A stretch of DNA of 64,000 nucleotides, taken from positions 124,001 through 188,000 of the forward strand of contig JAJPKO010000037.1 of the NCBI GenBank assembly GCA_021323655.1. Direction: 5' to 3'. The notes beneath the pieces are model-generated. The model was not told the DNA's origin, searched no databases, and saw only the letters and a program-made list of their open reading frames with translations. Each line of letters begins with the position of its first letter. Within the stretch, counting starts at the first letter, position 1. A program made the position numbers and the translations under genes. This DNA comes from Acidobacteriaceae bacterium (lineage in GTDB: Bacteria > Acidobacteriota > Terriglobia > Terriglobales > Acidobacteriaceae). Of the stretch, positions 19,059 through 29,819 are shown piece by piece.

Positions 19059-21458
19059 TTAAGGCAGAGCAAACGCTATGTAGAAGCCGTCGTCCACGTG
19101 TTTGAACTTGCTGCCGCCTGCAGCGATGACGATGTATTGCTTGCCGTCCACCATATAGGTAGTTGGCGTGGCGGTTGCGGCGTAAGGCAGCTGGTATTGC
19201 CAGAGCAATTTTCCGGTATGGCTGTCGAAGGCGCGAATTTTGTTGTCGAAGACAGTGGCGCCGATGACGACCAGGCCGCCTGCGGTCACGATGGGGCCGC
19301 CGTAGTTTTCGGTTCCGGTGGTGGGCACGCCTTTTGCGGCCAGTTCCGGGTATTCGCCGAGTGGGACCTGCCACAGGTACTTGCCGGTGTTCAGATCAAT
19401 GGCGCTAAGAGTACCCCAGGGCGGCGTGATGGCAGGATAACCATCGGGGTCGAGAAAGCGGTGATAGCCGGTGAAGCGGTAGCGGTCCATCTCTGCGATA
19501 GCGGGGTCTGCCTGTTCGGGGGACGGGTCAGAAACACCGAGGAAGCGAGCGAGAGATTTCATATCGGCAGTGGAAATGCGCGCTGCGGTGAAGGCAGGCA
19601 TGCGGCCACGGCCGGTACGAACGATGTTGTTGAGCTGCTGCGTGGTGATGCGATTGCCTATTCCGATGAGCGAAGGAAAGGACGGGGCGATGCCCTCCTG
19701 GTGATCACCGTGACAGATGGCGCACTGCTTTGCATAGACGCTGGCTCCGTGAGGATCTGCCGGAGATTCATCGGAGCCGAGACTGCGGTGTTGCAGCTCC
19801 TTATCATTGGAATCGGCAGCGCCGGGGTCTTTGCCTGATTTGAGATAGTGCAGGAGCGCGGTGAGCTGCGCATCCTGAATATTGGGGAACGAGGGCATGC
19901 GGCCTTTTCCGGCATGGATGGTTTCGATGATCTTCTGGTCGGAGAGGCGCTTGTCAATGCCGATGAGAGAGGGGAATTCCGGAGGTGATCCGACGCGGTC
20001 ATCGCGATGGCAGAGAGAACACTGCGTGCGATAGGTGCGTAGGCCCAGGCCCGCGGTCTGGTCATTGACGGCAAGACCGCCAGTGTAAACCACATTGTTG
20101 GCGTTGATGTAGATGACTCCGGTGGACGGGTCTACGCCGGGGCCGCCCCATTCAGCTCCGCCATCAAAACCGGGGACGACGAGGGTTTCTTTGCCGACGG
20201 ACAGGGGAAAGAACTGGCTGGTGGCTTGAATGAAGGTCTTGAACTGCTTAACTGCGTATTCGTGCGCGGCTGGTGTGCGCTGCGTGAGGTCGTTGATAGT
20301 GAGGGACTGGCGCGTGAACGGAGCGGGCAATGCCGGGAATGGCTGGGTCTTTGAGGCGACTTCTCCGGGCACGGTGCTGGCGGGAACGGGGCGTTCTTGC
20401 ACGGGAAAGAGCGGGGCGCCTGTCTCACGATTGAGAACGAAAAGGAAACCCTGCTTGGTGGTCTGCGCGACAGCGTCTACCAGTTTGCCATTGTGCCTGA
20501 CGGTAAGAAGAACGGGCGGCGCGGGGAAATCGCGGTCCCAGATGTCGTGATGCACGCCTTGAAAGCTCCAGATAAGCTTGCCGGTGGCGGCGTTGAGGGC
20601 GAGAAGGCTGTCGGCGTAACGATCATCCCCGGCGCGGGCACCTCCGTAGAAGTCGGGCACGGCAGAGCCGGTGGGCACGTAGACGATGCCGCGTTTGTCA
20701 TCCACGGTCATGCCCGCCCAGTTGTTCGCGGCCCCGGCGATCTTCCATGCGTCCTTGGGCCATGTCTCATGGCCGGGCTCGCCGGGCCTGGGGATGGTGT
20801 GGAAGTCCCAGACGAGCTTGCCGGTGTGTACGTCAAAGGCGCGGATGTCTCCGGGAGGTGCGGGAGGGGTTTCAGGATTGCGGCCGCCTACGATGATGAG
20901 ATCTTTATAGATGACGCCGGGGCTGGTGAGGACGATGGACTGCTTGCGGTAGTCGCCACGGAGGCCTTTGCGGAGATCAATGCGGCCATTCTCGCCGAAG
21001 GCCGTGACCGGGTGGCCGGTAGCGGCATCGAGCTCGTAGAGGTAATTCATGATGCCGCAGAGCAGAAACTGCTGCTGGCCGTTGGTCCAATAGGCGATGC
21101 CGCGGGCGGGCTGGTCGGCGGTGATGCCGGCGTCGAATTTCCAGATGAGCTTGCCGTTGGTGGCGTCTACGGCGATGACCTTCTGCGAAGCGGTATAGGC
21201 ATACATAACACGGCCTACAACCAGCGGATTGGTCTGAATGCCTTCTCCGCCTTCATGCGTGTCGAACTGCCATGCCACTTTGAGACGCCGGACGTTGCGG
21301 CGATTGATCTGCGTAAGAGAAGAATAGTGGCCAGGGGACCATTGTCCTCCTGCAATGGCTGGCGTGTTGCTGGGATTTTGCGCAGCAAAGCCGGCGATGG
21401 GAACGAGGAAGCAGAGGGCAAAAGAGACGCAAACTTTTGTGAGGCTCTTATGGTTCAA
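19059..21458 (-). CDS. PQQ-dependent dehydrogenase (membrane GDH/ADH-like propeller) with two cytochrome c motifs inserted
   Basis: PQQ propeller repeats ('ALNAATGKLIWSFQ', 'HHDIWDRDFPAPPVLL', 'AIDLNTGKYLWQVPLGE'), CSLCH and CAICH heme motifs; ORF extends to 21548 but its first residues are encoded by a REP-like hairpin, so start is probably downstream (TTG 21458 is one option). Confidence 0.85.
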   Translation of the reverse strand: MNHKSLTKVCVSFALCFLVPIAGFAAQNPSNTPAIAGGQWSPGHYSSLTQINRRNVRRLKVAWQFDTHEGGEGIQTNPLVVGRVMYAYTASQKVIAVDATNGKLIWKFDAGITADQPARGIAYWTNGQQQFLLCGIMNYLYELDAATGHPVTAFGENGRIDLRKGLRGDYRKQSIVLTSPGVIYKDLIIVGGRNPETPPAPPGDIRAFDVHTGKLVWDFHTIPRPGEPGHETWPKDAWKIAGAANNWAGMTVDDKRGIVYVPTGSAVPDFYGGARAGDDRYADSLLALNAATGKLIWSFQGVHHDIWDRDFPAPPVLLTVRHNGKLVDAVAQTTKQGFLFVLNRETGAPLFPVQERPVPASTVPGEVASKTQPFPALPAPFTRQSLTINDLTQRTPAAHEYAVKQFKTFIQATSQFFPLSVGKETLVVPGFDGGAEWGGPGVDPSTGVIYINANNVVYTGGLAVNDQTAGLGLRTYRTQCSLCHRDDRVGSPPEFPSLIGIDKRLSDQKIIETIHAGKGRMPSFPNIQDAQLTALLHYLKSGKDPGAADSNDKELQHRSLGSDESPADPHGASVYAKQCAICHGDHQEGIAPSFPSLIGIGNRITTQQLNNIVRTGRGRMPAFTAARISTADMKSLARFLGVSDPSPEQADPAIAEMDRYRFTGYHRFLDPDGYPAITPPWGTLSAIDLNTGKYLWQVPLGEYPELAAKGVPTTGTENYGGPIVTAGGLVVIGATVFDNKIRAFDSHTGKLLWQYQLPYAATATPTTYMVDGKQYIVIAAGGSKFKHVDDGFYIAFALP

Positions 21459-21507
21459 GATTGACCCGGGTTTATGGCTCTCTGGTGGACGGTCGCAAAC
21501 ATAAGGT

Positions 21508-21546
21508 GTTGCAAGCCCATGTCTCAAAATCGAGACGTGGGGCAAC
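21508..21546. repeat. REP-like hairpin copy 1 (CCCATGTCTC-AAAATC-GAGACGTGGG)
   Basis: Near-identical to perfect hairpin at 25682-25707; one G:T mismatch, plus outer GTTGC/GCAAC stem. Confidence 0.75.
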
Positions 21547-21661
21547 AACCTCTTCTACTGCAGCGTAACGAATTTGCTGCGACGGCCACCTTGTGAATGA
21601 AACCCATAGTAAACGAAAACCAGATGAGATTGGCCATGGAATTGCCCCGCTTCAATGATTT

Positions 21662-22408
21662 TTATGTGACGCAGTGGGCGTTCGGGTCCCGGACATAGCC
21701 AAGATCGGGAGCGGGGGTAAAGGTGCCATTGCCATTGCCGAGCATGACGTCGAACGTGTCCCCGTCATCGTCGTCGTAGACCACGGCGAGGTCGGGAACG
21801 CCATCACCGTTGAAGTCGGCGGCGGAAAGATGCGGGGACTTCCCGCGCATTCTGAGGGAGAAGGACCAGGCGCGGCGAAATTCACCTTTGGCGTCGCCGA
21901 GGAGCACGGTCACAGCACTGGCGCGCCAGTCGGAGACGGCAATGTCCGGAGTACCGTCACGGTTGAAATCGGCAACAGCGATGGAGACAACGGAATCGAA
22001 TCGAGCAATGGGTTTGGGAGGGAGCAGTTTTCCGGTGCCATCGCCGGGAAAGAGAAAGATTGTGCCACTGCTGTCTCCGAGCATGACGTCAGGAGTGCCG
22101 TCGCGGTTGAAATCGGCAGCGATGATGGTGCTCGGAGCAGGGCCAGAGATGGCGATGGAGGTTTCCTGTGTGAAGGATCCGTCCGGGTGGCCAAGAAGGA
22201 TGATGAGATGCGCCTGGCCGGGGTCGTTCTGCTCTGGAAAGACTACCTTGGCGAGATCGGCAATGCCGTCGTGGTTGAAATCGGCAGTGATGATCAGGGT
22301 GGGGTCGTCGTCAGCGTCGTCTTTTGATTGCGCATGCAACGGCGCGATGATCGCGGCGAGCGCAATGAGAGTGGCGAGGCAGCGCATTTTGCAGGCGGCA
22401 GAAAGCAT
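21662..22408 (-). CDS. secreted FG-GAP/VCBS repeat protein
   Basis: Repeats 'ADFNHDGIADLAKVVF', 'ADFNRDGTPDVMLGD', 'ADFNRDGTPDIAVSD', 'ADFNGDGVPDLAVVYDDDDGD'. Confidence 0.85.
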   Translation of the reverse strand: MLSAACKMRCLATLIALAAIIAPLHAQSKDDADDDPTLIITADFNHDGIADLAKVVFPEQNDPGQAHLIILLGHPDGSFTQETSIAISGPAPSTIIAADFNRDGTPDVMLGDSSGTIFLFPGDGTGKLLPPKPIARFDSVVSIAVADFNRDGTPDIAVSDWRASAVTVLLGDAKGEFRRAWSFSLRMRGKSPHLSAADFNGDGVPDLAVVYDDDDGDTFDVMLGNGNGTFTPAPDLGYVRDPNAHCVT

Positions 22409-22620: not shown

Positions 22621-23499
22621 TTGCGCAATTCCAGAAAATCCATCGGTCTGGTTGTGGCCTTTTTTGTCCTTGGAATGTGCGGGCTGACGAGCGCGGCCCA
22701 GCAATTAAGCGATGCCTCCGGTCAGCCGTCTGCTCCCCATGCGAAGCAGGTGCATGTGAAGCATGTGCTGGTGATTGGTGAGACAAAAGGCTTTGAGCAC
22801 GATTCTGTTTCCGCAGCGATGAATGCCATTTACGACATGGGCAAAGAAAGCGGGCTGTGGGACACGGAGATGCGCACGGATACAGAGCTGCTCACGAAAA
22901 AAGACCTGGGACGGAATGCGAAGAACCTGGATCATTTCGATGTTCTGGTTTTTGCCAGCACGACGGGCGAGCTGGACATGGACGCGGACCAGAAGCGGGA
23001 CATGATGTCGTTCATCAAAGAAGATGGAAAAGGGTTTGTGGGAATCCATGCGGCGCTGGATACGAATTACACCTGGCCCGAATATGGCGAAATGATTGGC
23101 GGCTGGTTTGACCAGCACCCCTGGATGACATTCAATGCGCCCATCATCAATGAGTCCCCTGACTTCCCTGCCGTGCGGCACTTTCCGAAAGAATTTGTGA
23201 AATACGATGAGATTTATCAGCCAAAGGACTGGTTGCGCGACAAGGTGAATGTGCTGCTCAGCCTGGATCCGTCGAAGCTGAATTATGAAAACAACCCGCG
23301 CATTCACCGCACGGACCACGATTTTGCAGTGGCGTGGTGCAAGATGTACGGCAAGGGACGCGTGTTCTACTCCACGCTGGGGCATACGGAAGAGGCGTGG
23401 CAAGACCCTGACATTCGCAAGATGTATTTTGAGGCGATCAAGTGGGCCATGGGATTGACGGAAGGAAGCACTACTCCGCATCCGCGCCCGGCGCGCTAG
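22621..23499 (+). CDS. ThuA-domain protein (TTG start), signal peptide
   Basis: 'VLVIGETKGFEHDSVSAAMNAIYDMG', 'GFVGIHAALDTNYTWPEYGEMIGGWFDQHPW', 'GRVFYSTLGHTEEAWQDP'. Confidence 0.87.
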   Translation: MRNSRKSIGLVVAFFVLGMCGLTSAAQQLSDASGQPSAPHAKQVHVKHVLVIGETKGFEHDSVSAAMNAIYDMGKESGLWDTEMRTDTELLTKKDLGRNAKNLDHFDVLVFASTTGELDMDADQKRDMMSFIKEDGKGFVGIHAALDTNYTWPEYGEMIGGWFDQHPWMTFNAPIINESPDFPAVRHFPKEFVKYDEIYQPKDWLRDKVNVLLSLDPSKLNYENNPRIHRTDHDFAVAWCKMYGKGRVFYSTLGHTEEAWQDPDIRKMYFEAIKWAMGLTEGSTTPHPRPAR

Positions 23500-23522: not shown

Positions 23523-24683
23523 ATGAAAAGGATTGGAATGGGGCTGATTGGCCCTGGATTTGTTGCTGCGCACCATCTGGATGCAGTTCGACGGTTGGGT
23601 GATGTAGACATTGTTGCAATTGCCGGGTCTTCACAGGAATCGGCGGAGAAGAAGGCGCGGGCATACAAGGTAGATCGTGCGTATGGGGACTACAAGGCGC
23701 TGATTGCTGATCCTGATATCCAAGTAATTCATAACACGACGCCGAACTATCTTCATCTTCCAGTGACGCTTGCTGCGCTGGAGGCGGGCAAGCATGTGAT
23801 TTCAGACAAGCCGCTGGCGCTGAATGCGCAGGAAGGCCGGAAGCTGCGCGATGCAGCGCTAGCGGCCAAAGTGGCGCATGTGGTGACGTTCAATTATCGC
23901 GGAAATCCGCTGGTGCAGCAGGCGCGCGGGATGATTGCGCGGGGTGAAATCGGCGCTCTGAGTTTTATCCACGGCTTTTATTTCCAGGACTGGATGACGA
24001 CCCCAAATGTTTATTCGTGGCGGTCGGACCCGGCGAAGGGAGGTGTGACATCGGCGCTTGGAGATATTGGTTCGCACTGGTGCGATGTGGCGGAGCATAT
24101 CTCTGGCATGAAAATTGTGTCGGTGCTGGCGGATCTTGCGACGGTGGTGCCGGTGCGATATTCGGCGGGAGCTTCGGCGGAGGCGTTCTCTTCAACTGTG
24201 GCAGGTGAAAGACGGCCGGTTGAGGTGCAGGCGGAAGACCTGGCGAGCGTTCTGCTGCGTTTTGAAAACGGAGCGCGAGGCTGCTTCTCTGTGGGACAGG
24301 TGCTGCCGGGACACAAAAATGATTTGCAAATTGAGTTGAACGGACGGACCTCTTCCCTGAAGTGGAGACAGGAAGAGCAGAACGAACTTTGGATCGGGCA
24401 CTATAACAAGCCCAACTGCATGATGGCGAAAGACCCGTCTCTGATTGCGAGCGATGCTCTTCCCTATGTTCATCTGCCGGGCGGGCATCAGGAATCCTGG
24501 GCCGATGCATTTCGCAATGTGATTCAGGATGCATACACATGGATCCGCGAAGGCGGACATCCCGAAGCAAAGCCAGCACCGCTGCCTACGTTTGAAGACG
24601 GCTACCGCTCAACGTGCCTGATTGATGCCATGCTGAAAAGCCATGCGGCAGGCGGAGTGTGGACCAGCGTGGAACAGAACTAA
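23523..24683 (+). CDS. Gfo/Idh/MocA family oxidoreductase
   Basis: 'IGMGLIGPGFVAAHHLDAVRRL', 'HVISDKPLALNAQEGRKL', 'TFNYRGNP', 'DIGSHWCDVAEHISG'. Confidence 0.9.
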   Translation: MKRIGMGLIGPGFVAAHHLDAVRRLGDVDIVAIAGSSQESAEKKARAYKVDRAYGDYKALIADPDIQVIHNTTPNYLHLPVTLAALEAGKHVISDKPLALNAQEGRKLRDAALAAKVAHVVTFNYRGNPLVQQARGMIARGEIGALSFIHGFYFQDWMTTPNVYSWRSDPAKGGVTSALGDIGSHWCDVAEHISGMKIVSVLADLATVVPVRYSAGASAEAFSSTVAGERRPVEVQAEDLASVLLRFENGARGCFSVGQVLPGHKNDLQIELNGRTSSLKWRQEEQNELWIGHYNKPNCMMAKDPSLIASDALPYVHLPGGHQESWADAFRNVIQDAYTWIREGGHPEAKPAPLPTFEDGYRSTCLIDAMLKSHAAGGVWTSVEQN

Positions 24684-24698
24684 GAGGAGCAACCCTGG

Positions 24699-25658
24699 AT
24701 GAAACTTGGAGTATTTACAGCACTGCTTTCGCAGATGCCACTGGAAGATGCACTGAACAAGCTGAAGTCTTATGGCATCAGCAGGGTGGAACTTGGAACC
24801 GGCAATTATCCCGGAGATGCGCACTGCAAGCTTTCCATGCTGGACGATACGAATGCGCTCAAGGACTTTAAGAAGAAGCTGGATGATCATGGATTTTCAA
24901 TCAGCGCGCTGAGCTGCCATGGAAACCCGCTGCATCCGAACCCGGCGCTGGCGAAACAGGCGCAGGAGACAAACCGCAAGAGCATCCTGCTGGCGGAGAA
25001 GCTGGGTGTTCCGGTGGTGGTGGATTTTTCGGGCTGCCCTGGCGATTCTGCTGAAGCAAGATCACCGAACTGGATCACGTGCCCGTGGCCACCGGATTAT
25101 CTGGATACGTTGAAGTGGCAGTGGGAGGAGGTTGTTACTCCGTACTGGATGGAACGCGGGAAGTTTGCTGCTGACCACGGGGTGAAGATTGCGATTGAGA
25201 TGCATCCGGGGTTTGTCGTTTACAGCCCTGAGACGTTGTTCCGTTTGCGGGAAATTGCCGGGCCAGCGGTGGGCTGCAACTATGACCCGAGTCATATGTT
25301 CTGGCAGCAGATTGACCCGATTGCCGCGATACGCGTGTTGGGAGATGCGATTTTTCATGTCCATGCGAAAGACACGCAGCTGTACCCTTCGAACCTTGCG
25401 CGGACTGGAGTGCTGGATACGAAGCCTTATACGGATGAGCGCAATCGCGGATGGATCTTCAGGACCTGCGGATATGGTCATGGTGCGGAATGGTGGAAAG
25501 AGTTTGTCTCGACGCTGCGTCTCTATGGATATGACGGAGTGCTTTCTATCGAGCACGAAGATAGCCTGCTTTCCGCCGAAGAAGGGCTTTCAAGAGCGGC
25601 ACAGTTTTTAAGCGATATTATTTTGAAAGAGAAGCCTGGAGCGGCGTGGTGGGTTTAG
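24699..25658 (+). CDS. sugar phosphate isomerase/epimerase (TIM barrel, AP endonuclease 2-like)
   Basis: 'RVELGTGNYPGDAHCKLSMLDD', 'CNYDPSHMFWQQIDPIAAIRVLGDAIFHVHAKDTQL', 'GVLSIEHEDSL'. Confidence 0.9.
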   Translation: MKLGVFTALLSQMPLEDALNKLKSYGISRVELGTGNYPGDAHCKLSMLDDTNALKDFKKKLDDHGFSISALSCHGNPLHPNPALAKQAQETNRKSILLAEKLGVPVVVDFSGCPGDSAEARSPNWITCPWPPDYLDTLKWQWEEVVTPYWMERGKFAADHGVKIAIEMHPGFVVYSPETLFRLREIAGPAVGCNYDPSHMFWQQIDPIAAIRVLGDAIFHVHAKDTQLYPSNLARTGVLDTKPYTDERNRGWIFRTCGYGHGAEWWKEFVSTLRLYGYDGVLSIEHEDSLLSAEEGLSRAAQFLSDIILKEKPGAAWWV

Positions 25659-25681: not shown

Positions 25682-25707
25682 CCCACGTCTCAAAATCGAG
25701 ACGTGGG
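25682..25707. repeat. REP-like hairpin copy 2 (CCCACGTCTC-AAAATC-GAGACGTGGG)
   Basis: Perfect 10-bp stem with AAAATC loop; same loop and stem as 21516-21541. Confidence 0.8.
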
Positions 25708-25769: not shown

Positions 25770-27167
25770 ATGAATCGAAGGCAATTTCTTTCTTCAGCAG
25801 GAATTTTTTTAGCCGGTAAGTCCCTTCATGCGCTGGCACCTCGTCCTTTTGTACCTGCTCCGGGAGCGGCGAAGGCAGACCACACGCTGCGCATTGAACC
25901 GTGCACGCTTGAGATCGGGCCTGGAGTTTCCGTGAAGACGATCGCATATAACGGTCAGGTGCCGGGGCCGCTGCTTCGGTTGCGGGAGGGCGTTCCTGTG
26001 ACGATTGATGTAACCAACGCCTCAGACAATGCCGATATTGTCCACTGGCATGGGCTGGCGATTGATTCTTATAACGACGGCGCGATGGAAGAAGGCTCGC
26101 CGATGATTCCGGCCGAGCACACGCAGCGCTATTCCTTTACGCCGCGGCCCGCGGGAACGCGCTGGTATCACACACATGCGGGCGCCAACGACAATCTGGC
26201 GATGGGCACGTATACGGGCCAATTCGGTTTTTTGCTGGTGGAGGGCAAGGAGCAGCCGGCGCACTATGACCAGGAGATCTATCTGGCCATTCACCACTGG
26301 GAACCGTCTTTTGTACCCATGGTGGAAACGATGCGCATGGAGTCCTCGAACAATCCGCTTACGACTGGGTCGGACGTGGGCTACAAATACGCCACGATAA
26401 ATGCGCACATGCTCGGCGCGGGAGAACCGATCCGCGTGAAACATGGGCAACGAGTGTTGTTTCGCCTGCTGAACGCGAGCGCAACGGAGAATGTTGTTCT
26501 GGCGCTGCCAGGGCACACGTTCAAGGTGATGGCGATGGATGGCAATCCTGTGCCGAATCCGAAGCCGGTGGAAGTGCTTTCGCTCGCGGTGGCTGAACGC
26601 ATTGATGCCGTGGTGGAGATGAACTCGCCGGGCGTGTGGGTGCTGGGATCGACGCTAGAAAAAGTACGCCAGATGGGGTTGGGGATTGTTGTTGAGTATG
26701 CGGGCAGGAAAGGCGCTCCTGTGTGGAAAGATCCCGCCGCTTCCGAATGGGACTACACGCAGTTTGCCAATCCTGTAGTTGCAGCAAAACCGGATGAAAC
26801 GTTTACGCTGACATTTCGCGATATTGGCCCGCAGCATGGATCGAAGTTTGACACGTGGACGATCAATAACCAATCGTGGCCGGACATTGAACCGCTGATA
26901 GTGCAGAAAGGCAAACGCTACCGCCTCGTTTTCCGCAATGGAAGCGGAGACCAGCATCCTCTGCATCTGCACCGTCATACGTTTGAAGTGACAAAGATTG
27001 GCGAGAAACAGATCAGCGGACTGAGAAAAGATGTGATTAACGTAATGCCGCTGGACAGCGTGGAAGTGGATTTTGTCGCCGATAATCCTGGCGATACGCT
27101 GTGGCATTGCCACCAGCAACTGCACATGGACTATGGGTTCATGCAACTGATTAAGTACGCAGGGTGA
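25770..27167 (+). CDS. multicopper oxidase, Tat-exported
   Basis: Tat-like 'NRRQFLSSAG'; Cu motifs 'HWHG', 'WYHTHAG', 'HPLHLH', 'HCHQQLHMDYGF'. Confidence 0.92.
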   Translation: MNRRQFLSSAGIFLAGKSLHALAPRPFVPAPGAAKADHTLRIEPCTLEIGPGVSVKTIAYNGQVPGPLLRLREGVPVTIDVTNASDNADIVHWHGLAIDSYNDGAMEEGSPMIPAEHTQRYSFTPRPAGTRWYHTHAGANDNLAMGTYTGQFGFLLVEGKEQPAHYDQEIYLAIHHWEPSFVPMVETMRMESSNNPLTTGSDVGYKYATINAHMLGAGEPIRVKHGQRVLFRLLNASATENVVLALPGHTFKVMAMDGNPVPNPKPVEVLSLAVAERIDAVVEMNSPGVWVLGSTLEKVRQMGLGIVVEYAGRKGAPVWKDPAASEWDYTQFANPVVAAKPDETFTLTFRDIGPQHGSKFDTWTINNQSWPDIEPLIVQKGKRYRLVFRNGSGDQHPLHLHRHTFEVTKIGEKQISGLRKDVINVMPLDSVEVDFVADNPGDTLWHCHQQLHMDYGFMQLIKYAG

Positions 27168-27186
27168 TGTGAAGGTAACTGTTGGA

Positions 27187-28215
27187 ATGATAAAGAAGCT
27201 CTGTACTGTAACTCTGATGGCAATAGCTGCATGGTTTTTCCCGATGGGAAGTGGCGCGCAGACACAGACCAATCATGAAGAAGGCGCCCAAGCATATGCA
27301 AAGCACTGCTCCATCTGCCATGGAGATCATCGCGAAGGCAATCTGCCTGGGTTTCCTCCGCTGCTGGACATAAGCCGGCAGTTGAACGATCAGCAAATGG
27401 CCACTCTGATCCATACAGGAAAAGGCCGCATGCCGGCGTTTCCTAAAATGCCGCAGGAAGAGTTGATGGCGCTGATTCGCTTTCTGCACAGCGATGATCT
27501 GTCAGCAGGAGCAGCCCATGGAGAGGAGGGTGGTGCGAATGTGGCCGATGCGGGACGGCGCCTCTTCCAGCGTAACTGCGCGTTTTGCCATGGACGAGAC
27601 GCCGCGGGTGGAGAAACCGGCCCAGACCTGACGCGCTCAAAACTGGCACTGGCGGATGTGAATGGCGACAAGATTGGCGAAGTTGTGAGGAACGGGCGGC
27701 CTGATAAAAAGATGCCCGCATTCAATTTCTCCAGTGATGAGATTCGCAGCATCGCTGCATTCATCCACGCACAGCAAAAGAAAGCTGCGGAGCACCCGGG
27801 AGGACGACGCGGCGTGGACGTTGCCGACTTGCAGACAGGAAATGCTGCTGACGGCAAAGCGTACTTCAATGGCGCGGGAGGCTGCGCGAAGTGCCACTCA
27901 CCCACAGGCGATCTTGCTGGTATCGCTTCGCGGTTTGAGGGGCTTCAGCTCGAGGAGCGCATGCTTTATCCACGCAATACGAAGACAAAGGTGAATGTCA
28001 CGCTCCCGTCGGGAGAAAAGATCAGCGGCGTGCTGGCGTACCGTGATGAATTTACGATTGGGCTGCGCGACAGCGACGGGACATACCACTCCTGGCCGAC
28101 GAGCCGCGTCCGCTTCACGGTGGACTCGCCTGTGGATGCGCATGTGGAGCTGTTCAGCAAGTATACGGACAAAGATATCCATGACCTGATGGCATATCTG
28201 CAAACCCTGCGGTGA
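27187..28215 (+). CDS. secreted triheme c-type cytochrome
   Basis: Three CxxCH motifs: CSICH, CAFCH, CAKCH; signal peptide MIKKLCTVTLMAIAAWFFPMGSGAQ. Confidence 0.9.
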   Translation: MIKKLCTVTLMAIAAWFFPMGSGAQTQTNHEEGAQAYAKHCSICHGDHREGNLPGFPPLLDISRQLNDQQMATLIHTGKGRMPAFPKMPQEELMALIRFLHSDDLSAGAAHGEEGGANVADAGRRLFQRNCAFCHGRDAAGGETGPDLTRSKLALADVNGDKIGEVVRNGRPDKKMPAFNFSSDEIRSIAAFIHAQQKKAAEHPGGRRGVDVADLQTGNAADGKAYFNGAGGCAKCHSPTGDLAGIASRFEGLQLEERMLYPRNTKTKVNVTLPSGEKISGVLAYRDEFTIGLRDSDGTYHSWPTSRVRFTVDSPVDAHVELFSKYTDKDIHDLMAYLQTLR

Positions 28216-29819
28216 TGAGGTCACACATTCCGATGAAGTTTTTGCAATACACGTTTTTGCTTGCCTCTGCCGGCCTCTTATCTTTGCTGCCCCAGGCCGT
28301 GACCGCGCAGAACCTCGATCCATCTGCCATTCTGCATCCGGCACCGGACAGCTGGCCTACTTACCACGGGGACTACTCGGGCAGGAGGCATAGCCACCTG
28401 ACGCAGATTACGCCGCAGAATGTTGGAAACCTGACGCTGGCGTGGGCGTTCCAGACGGACCAGAACGCGGCGATCAAGGCCTCTCCCCTGCTGGTGGATG
28501 GGATCCTCTACTTTACTGTTCCGGACAATATCTGGGCGGTAGATGCGCGCTCGGGGCACATGCTGTGGCACTTTAACAAGCCGACGGATGAAGGCGACCA
28601 TATTGGCCAGCGCGGCGTGGCGATGTATAAGGGCTGGCTCTATTTCCTTTCTCCGGATGGTCACCTGACGTCACTGAATGCGAAAGATGGTTCTGTGCGC
28701 TGGACGGTGCAGGTGGCGGATGTGAGCAAGGGATACTGGACGACGATGGCCCCGCTGGTGATTCGCAACCACGTCATCATTGGCGTTTCGGGAGATTTCG
28801 ACAATCTTCCGGGGTATCTGAAGTCCATTGATCCGGAGACGGGTGAAACGCAATGGCAATGGCTGAGCACGCCACCTGCCGGTACTCCTAACAGCACGAC
28901 GGGCGGGATGACGTGGATCACGGGGACGTATGATCCTGATCTGAATCTGCTGTATTGGGGTACGGGGAACCCGACGCCGGTGTTGAACGGGAAGACGCGT
29001 CCGGGCGATGATCTCTACACATGCAGCATTGTTGCGCTCAATCCGGACACGGGCAAGCTGGTGTGGGGATTCTCTGTTTCTCCGCACGACACCCATGACT
29101 GGGATGCGGTGGAGCCGCCAGTGCTGGTGGATGGCGACTTCCATGGCAAGCCGCACAAAATGCTGATGCAGGCTTCGCGCAATGGCTACTTCTTTGTGCT
29201 GGATCGCACGAATGGAAAGAGCCTGCTGACTGCTCCCTTTGGCCCGGTGAACTGGGCGCTAGGGGTGGACAAGGATGGGCATCCTATTCCCAACCCGGAG
29301 AAGGAACCTGCGCCGGATGGGCGGCTGATTGCTCCGGATGAAGGCGGACTGACGAATTTCCGCTCACCCAGCTTTGATCCGAAGACGGGCCTGTTTATTG
29401 TGGATGCGCACCCGAGCTGGAGCATCTATTTTGCCAAGCCTGCGGACGGCAACTACGGCTGGGCGGGCGCAGATTATGGGCTGTGGGGCAAAGGCGTGAT
29501 CGAAGCCATTGACTACCAGACGGGAAAGATTCGCTGGACCCATGATGTGGGGCCGGGAGGCTCAGGCGCGGGTGTTCTTACGACTGATTCCGGGCTGACG
29601 TTTACGGGCGATGCCCATGGCAATGTGCTGGCGCTGGACACGCGGACCGGCAAGACATTGTGGCACGCCGGAGCGGGTGCGCCAATGTACAGCTCGCCGA
29701 TTTCTTATGAACTGGATGGACGACAGTATGTAATCACCAGTAGCGGTGGCGTGCTTTTTGCCTGGGCGTTGCCAGAGCATCTACAGGAAAGCGGGAAAAA
29801 AGCCGCCGGGAGACGATGA
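28212..29819 (+). CDS. PQQ-dependent dehydrogenase (methanol/ethanol dehydrogenase-like)
   Basis: 'WPTYHGDYSGRRHSHLTQITPQNVGNLTLAWAFQTD', 'SPHDTHDWDAVEPPVL', 'GPGGSGAGVLTTDSGLTFTGDAHGNVLALDTRTGKTLWH'; starts 4 nt inside the cytochrome gene. Confidence 0.9.
   Translation: MMRSHIPMKFLQYTFLLASAGLLSLLPQAVTAQNLDPSAILHPAPDSWPTYHGDYSGRRHSHLTQITPQNVGNLTLAWAFQTDQNAAIKASPLLVDGILYFTVPDNIWAVDARSGHMLWHFNKPTDEGDHIGQRGVAMYKGWLYFLSPDGHLTSLNAKDGSVRWTVQVADVSKGYWTTMAPLVIRNHVIIGVSGDFDNLPGYLKSIDPETGETQWQWLSTPPAGTPNSTTGGMTWITGTYDPDLNLLYWGTGNPTPVLNGKTRPGDDLYTCSIVALNPDTGKLVWGFSVSPHDTHDWDAVEPPVLVDGDFHGKPHKMLMQASRNGYFFVLDRTNGKSLLTAPFGPVNWALGVDKDGHPIPNPEKEPAPDGRLIAPDEGGLTNFRSPSFDPKTGLFIVDAHPSWSIYFAKPADGNYGWAGADYGLWGKGVIEAIDYQTGKIRWTHDVGPGGSGAGVLTTDSGLTFTGDAHGNVLALDTRTGKTLWHAGAGAPMYSSPISYELDGRQYVITSSGGVLFAWALPEHLQESGKKAAGRR

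Follow-up and report, generated by a model that had tools for sequence, protein, structure and literature searches.

The window analysed here, a 64,000-nucleotide stretch of the genome of an Acidobacteriaceae bacterium (assembly GCA_021323655.1, contig JAJPKO010000037.1, positions 124,001 to 188,000), contains the six-gene set ThuA–Gfo/Idh/MocA–TIM-barrel–MCO–CYT3–QP. All genes lie on the plus strand. At the 3' end of the set, the gene of a multicopper oxidase (MCO, 25770–27167) is followed by the genes of a triheme cytochrome c (CYT3, 27169–28215) and a quinoprotein-fold beta-propeller protein (QP, 28212–29819). As judged by conservation of gene neighbourhoods, the MCO clusters with a putative dehydrogenase and a c-type heme module far beyond chance. 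It is conceivable, although we hold the idea with considerable reserve, that this clade of Tat-exported (twin-arginine) MCOs, having a HCHQQLHMDYGFMQ-type signature with axial phenylalanine, is a modular terminal electron acceptor to which unrelated periplasmic dehydrogenases have been joined in the course of evolution: QP with CYT3, a fused diheme quinohemoprotein (QH) and a spermidine-dehydrogenase-like (SpdH-like) flavoprotein. In Acidobacteriaceae and in some of the acetic acid bacteria, it would form a non-energy-conserving O2 branch outside the membrane. In the window, this branch would serve the oxidation of glycosides by a quinoprotein whose cofactor site is non-canonical. All parts of the set come from known families. 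That members of a single MCO clade are repeatedly paired with different dehydrogenases of the periplasm is undescribed in the open-access literature searched, where no system of the same composition was found either, in agreement with the initial annotation of the three 3' genes.

Scanning 84,980 species genomes gave 50 MCO loci, and among 200 genomes sampled from the order, 89 contain MCOs of the wider family. Counts were made on distinct loci, duplicates being removed. In the focal MCO clade (99% SH-aLRT), 48 of 52 distinct loci carry a quinoprotein and c-heme module directly downstream on the same strand, with gaps mostly below 70 nucleotides (nt). This module is CYT3 with QP in 26 loci and the fused diheme QH in 22. 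Neither was found in any of 60 other MCO loci (Fisher p ~2e-27 before allowing for relatedness). The window itself also encodes a QH (19059–21548, minus strand), whose orthologues are the direct downstream partners of the MCO in 22 other loci. Conservation of the MCO–cytochrome–quinoprotein order, which had been proposed as a check, is confirmed by these counts and by the recurrence of the full ThuA–Gfo–TIM–MCO–CYT3–QP order in many Acidobacteriaceae.

In the MCO tree, loci with QH partners are paraphyletic to those with CYT3 and QP, which are nested among them, the inner branches having only 83–89 SH-aLRT. This suggests a single replacement of QH by CYT3 and QP. The neighbouring MCO clade has SpdH-like flavoprotein partners (seven loci, four acetic acid bacteria; match to SpdH in PDB at 8.8e-52). 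The same clade also includes a cytochrome–gluconolactonase–DUF4380–quinoprotein–MCO set in loci L036 (5234–13215, the same place as L085) and L037. A lactonase is present within the sets of L036, L037 and L086, and the lactonase-containing set of L036 and L037 suggests oxidation of an aldose to its lactone. On its tree, the MCO has changed the dehydrogenase partner at least twice, always remaining beside one. That the partner changed repeatedly while the MCO was kept is the strongest sign of an MCO in the service of dehydrogenases, and it favours a role as electron acceptor. The initial proposal of the MCO as acceptor for the dehydrogenase is in this way upheld in part: the evolutionary tie and the partner changes fit it, whereas electron transfer from the cytochrome to the MCO is an inference.

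Individual loci of the neighbouring clade differ in layout. The SpdH-like gene is upstream of the MCO in L042, L044, L045 and L047, and it is also found beside the MCO in L040, L041 and L038; the hosts are acetic acid bacteria together with some Acidobacteriaceae. In the open-access literature, no paper was found that joins this MCO family with an SpdH-like flavoprotein. In L036, the lactonase-containing set is followed by a second MCO.

The preferred reading, which we put somewhat short of an even chance, is that the set represents the periplasmic oxidation module of an acidobacterial glycoside or sugar pathway, to which the MCO is attached as an oxygen sink. QP, a propeller resembling lanthanide-dependent alcohol dehydrogenases and having an altered, conserved cofactor site, would be the periplasmic enzyme that oxidizes a sugar or glycoside. 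The fixed pairing of QP and CYT3 suggests that the electrons pass to the latter. From CYT3, they could flow to the usual respiratory oxidases or, in genomes that have the MCO gene, to the MCO. The type 1 (T1) copper of the MCO would then accept heme electrons and O2 would be reduced to water, a step to which the recurrent change of dehydrogenase partner points. ThuA, the hydratase-like TIM barrel and the Gfo-type reductase may subsequently process the oxidized sugar in parallel to known operons of oxidation, elimination, hydration and reduction. If the MCO takes heme electrons, soil Acidobacteria own a soluble O2-consuming branch that serves the oxidation of sugars in the periplasm, and its clear sequence signature would make it possible to find such a branch elsewhere.

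Several observations weigh against this reading. Copper enzymes of the MCO fold often oxidize phenols or metals. Three loci of the focal clade (L023, L026 and L054) have no complete partner nearby. This MCO was found in none of 20 loci sampled from relatives for the NCBIfam family TIGR04528, to which QP belongs; in most of them, a diheme cytochrome is beside the quinoprotein or fused to it. Six triheme CYT3–QP loci, picked because their genomes are devoid of this MCO at that place, keep ThuA, and five of them also keep Gfo–TIM. QH was found with no adjacent MCO in 14 loci, which had been chosen at a distance from MCO loci. The genome under study also has three strong matches to heme-copper oxidases and one weaker match. 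Among the matches listed for the 200-genome sample, at least 17 triheme loci have the MCO and at least six do not. In the QP tree, loci switch several times between having and not having the MCO, on weakly supported branches. The dehydrogenase modules evidently work without the MCO, because both CYT3–QP and QH occur without it. As far as gene content tells, the MCO is an optional branch and not the sole electron outlet, the dependence being one-way, of the MCO on the module. The idea of a self-contained oxidase chain, put forward initially, was therefore too strong, given the CYT3–QP loci devoid of the MCO and the presence of at least three heme-copper oxidases in the genome. Known cytochrome c-linked quinoproteins also bypass the quinone pool.

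The MCO is a protein of 465 amino acids. Its N-terminus, MNRRQFL, is a twin-arginine motif. The Cu-oxidase_3, Cu-oxidase and Cu-oxidase_2 domains are each above the Pfam cut-off, as in three-domain MCOs, and the four copper motifs (HWHG, WYHTH, HPLHLH and HCHxxxHxxxG) are present with all copper ligands. The earlier description of a Tat-type enzyme with four copper motifs is accurate in each of these respects. The T1 axial position, ten residues after the cysteine, is Phe, as was also noticed initially; the same residue occurs in 47 of 47 aligned relatives, and the HCHQQLHMDYGFMQ-type signature with axial Phe is conserved in the clade. Such a T1 copper is probably of high potential. The fold and the four copper motifs are shared with three-domain MCOs and laccases (PDB 6vow and 4f7k; CueO; CopA). 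Unlike CueO, CopA and laccases, the window MCO is outside all curated equivalogs, bears the axial-Phe signature and has dehydrogenase neighbours.

The MCO could in principle be a copper-handling enzyme of the CueO or CopA kind with an incidental position. Its best NCBIfam match is copper_res_A, and its leader is of the Tat type. However, the match reaches only 151 bits at a cut-off of 479, and the MCO is far under every other curated cut-off as well (CueO, 87 bits against 525; laccase, 60 against 559). The partners are conserved, and no copper-resistance gene was found among the neighbouring window genes scanned. This explanation appears very improbable, and a copper-resistance role was rejected because no curated match was obtained for the MCO. 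Recent acquisition of the MCO gene was also rejected, its GC and GC3 being in line with those of the neighbouring genes.

More distant MCO paralogues (L093, L097, L110, L122 and others) precede a conserved uncharacterized, exported-looking protein of approximately 270–280 amino acids, with no dehydrogenase. In L035, an MCO–QH–Gfo arrangement is present on a contig labelled Rhodanobacteraceae, but in the MCO tree it falls within Acidobacteria; this reflects either transfer or misbinning.

The set was initially taken to consist of three genes. ThuA, Gfo and the TIM barrel also belong to it, which makes it more than a three-gene system. The first gene (22621–23499, plus strand) encodes a ThuA-family protein (PF06283, 164 bits) with a Sec-type signal sequence and a TTG start behind AAGGAG. 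ThuA is directly upstream in many MCO sets and also in sets without the MCO. It is followed by a Gfo/Idh/MocA oxidoreductase (23523–24683, plus strand) and a xylose-isomerase-like TIM barrel (24699–25658, plus strand; PF01261, 120 bits), both having no signal peptide. The Gfo protein was compared with Pfam, NCBIfam and PDB. Its nearest curated model is levoglucosan dehydrogenase (181 bits, below the cut-off of 650), and the PDB matches include 6a3f (165 bits), DgpA 7xr9 and the glucuronide-3-dehydrogenase 8tdi. The TIM barrel is a relative of 2-hydroxy-3-keto-glucal hydratase (PDB 8ro4, 5.5e-10). Known operons oxidize a glycoside and then eliminate, hydrate and reduce (PMC10628242). Deglycosylation operons of this kind (Agrobacterium GlycDH–OGE–HYD–Gfo, Bacillus smithii levoglucosan and puerarin PUE; PMC10628242) likewise combine a HYD-like TIM barrel and a Gfo/Idh/MocA protein with a dehydrogenase, which is of another kind here. 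In contrast to those operons (PMC10628242), the oxidation step of the window set would be performed by a quinoprotein and a triheme cytochrome, and ThuA and the MCO are additional. Neither a recognized OGE nor a known glycoside 3-dehydrogenase was found in the window set. The upstream genes resemble those of 3-keto-glycoside pathway enzymes, which suggests glycoside oxidation; by analogy, the window set would be a similar pathway in which a quinoprotein is the first enzyme.

The same resemblance would fit a laccase-like MCO acting on a small molecule of the pathway, for example, a phenolic aglycone of an oxidized and cleaved plant glycoside. QP and CYT3 would then feed the heme-copper oxidases, and the genes would share a substrate, not an electron chain. 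The enzymes of O- and C-glycoside and levoglucosan deglycosylation resembled by Gfo and TIM do release aglycones. The dispensability of the MCO in otherwise similar sets and the heme-copper oxidases of the genome also agree with this explanation, as does the fact that the closest solved structures to the MCO are those of laccases and MCOs (PDB). Yet the QH and SpdH-like clades mostly have no ThuA–Gfo–TIM in the immediate set while the dehydrogenase is kept, so that the common factor is the dehydrogenase. We regard a laccase-like role as rather unlikely, though worth serious consideration.

The preferred reading, with an oxygen sink attached to an oxidation module, takes QP to be a redox enzyme. 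QP has a Sec signal and carries the PQQ (pyrroloquinoline quinone) beta-propeller (Pfam). It is a full member of TIGR04528 (acido_non_PQQ, "acido-empty-quinoprotein group A"; 784.9 bits at a cut-off of 650) and remains below the cut-off of the PQQ-dependent alcohol dehydrogenase model TIGR03075 (385 bits against 480). No paper on TIGR04528 was found in the open-access literature (PMC full text). The predicted fold of QP is closest to lanthanide PedH (6zcw) and XoxF (6dam) and to quinohemoprotein alcohol dehydrogenase (qhADH, 1kb0). The model, with pLDDT 74.6 and pTM 0.79, suffices for the fold, that of QH is weak (67 and 0.65), and geometry was taken from neither. As in PedH and XoxF with their cytochrome c and in quinohemoprotein alcohol dehydrogenase, QP is a Sec-exported propeller beside a c-type cytochrome and keeps Trp, Asn, the catalytic Asp and the lanthanide-type +2 Asp. 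The roles of these residues (Trp floor, Asn ligand, catalytic Asp and a +2 Asp typical of lanthanide enzymes) we take from general knowledge of the family. Both Arg and the second Asn are also kept, and all of these are invariant in 26 orthologues. Unlike those enzymes, which have a vicinal Cys-Cys disulfide over PQQ and Glu ligands of the metal and PQQ, QP has no Cys-Cys pair, Lys in place of Glu70 and a DxDN loop around Glu185 (compared with 1kb0); the window set also differs in the triheme partner, the MCO in the operon and a host without PQQ biosynthesis. Lys occupies the Glu70 position in 26 of 26 orthologues, and the Glu185 position varies (F/L/M/S). Altogether, 12 of 15 examined site positions do not vary among the 26 orthologues, compared with 199 invariant columns among all 535, a comparison that is indicative only since active sites are generally more conserved.

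The label of PQQ dehydrogenase given initially to QP is unproven at present, considering the model scores, the non-canonical site and the genome. PqqE and PqqC, which bear on PQQ biosynthesis, were not found over cut-off in this genome, listed as 100% complete. PqqE was found in one of 11 genomes (this one included) in which a TIGR04528 protein exceeds the cut-off, and PqqC is absent from 22 of 29 genomes carrying such MCO sets. Given these searches, the idea that PQQ synthesis backs a PQQ enzyme was rejected. QP could be truly "empty", a binding or scaffold propeller having no redox cofactor, in which case there would be neither a dehydrogenase step nor an electron chain. The NCBIfam family name, the absence of PqqC and PqqE, the substitution of Glu70, the missing Cys-Cys pair and the variable Glu185 position speak for this. 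The invariance of the remaining site residues and the constant association with c-type hemes, whether the MCO is present or not, speak against it. PQQ scavenging is widespread in Gram-negative bacteria, and non-producers can take up environmental PQQ (PMC12124388), although the importer PqqU has been reported among Acidobacteria only in Vicinamibacteria (PMC12124388). The cofactor site of QP is altered and nevertheless invariant in 26 orthologues, and QP is therefore probably not dead; an altered redox site appears more likely than an empty one, and the empty propeller is improbable. The role and the cofactor of "empty" quinoproteins of Acidobacteria, which are numerous in genomes lacking PQQ synthesis, thereby become testable.

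TIGR04528-like quinoproteins are expanded in two genomes without PqqE over cut-off (G039, 31 matches; G034, 22 matches; loci L139–L150). In QH, the two c-type heme domains are inserted within the propeller (residues ~500–670) and are not C-terminal. Its Trp277, Ser295, Asp338, Asp340 and Lys365 are invariant in 23 orthologues, the usual Asn ligand being replaced by Ser.

CYT3 contains three CxxCH motifs (CSICH, CAFCH and CAKCH), Cytochrome_CBB3/Cytochrom_C domains of Pfam and a Sec export signal (judged by eye), so that its initial description as a triheme cytochrome holds. A cytochrome accompanies the quinoprotein in most TIGR04528 group A loci sampled from relatives, as it does QP, a member of the same family. 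In those loci, the partners are nearly all diheme and no MCO is nearby, whereas CYT3 has a third heme domain of the QH type. This first domain of CYT3 scores ~77 bits against the QH heme domains and no more than 10 bits against the diheme partners that accompany MCO-less quinoproteins. The second and third domains match these diheme partners with ~70 bits. In the domain tree, which has few columns and many rows, the first domain groups with heme domain 2 of QH (98), and the other two group with the diheme partners (96 and 99). By these comparisons, CYT3 is a mosaic joining parts of both electron-transfer modules. The mosaic is no proof of docking to the MCO, because triheme CYT3 also exists without it, a further point against an MCO-bound chain. 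The first heme domain as an exclusive MCO docking domain was rejected, given the six triheme CYT3–QP loci without the MCO and QH with no adjacent MCO.

The three 3' genes are real, co-directional and tightly packed, as had been reported. CYT3 starts with GTG at 27169 or, likelier, with ATG at 27187 behind GAAGG, which places it 1 or 19 nt behind the MCO gene. QP starts with GTG at 28212, overlapping CYT3 by 4 nt, or with ATG at 28215 or 28233. An imperfect 26-nt palindrome, CCCACGTCTCAAAATCGAGACGTGGG, occupies 25682–25707 (no strand) between the TIM-barrel and MCO genes, and another copy is at 21516–21541; the two copies flank this set of genes. With up to two mismatches, nine dispersed copies were found in the genome (control, 0). 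It is probably an intergenic repeat and not a part of the system. The hairpin between the TIM-barrel and MCO genes was rejected as a terminator, being one of the nine copies; the consensus scan showed no excess of terminators. QH is divergent from ThuA in the window, with an FG-GAP gene in between, and L062 has a very similar layout. An FG-GAP repeat protein, encoded here at 21662–22408, also recurs beside MCO sets in L011, L015, L039 and L066.

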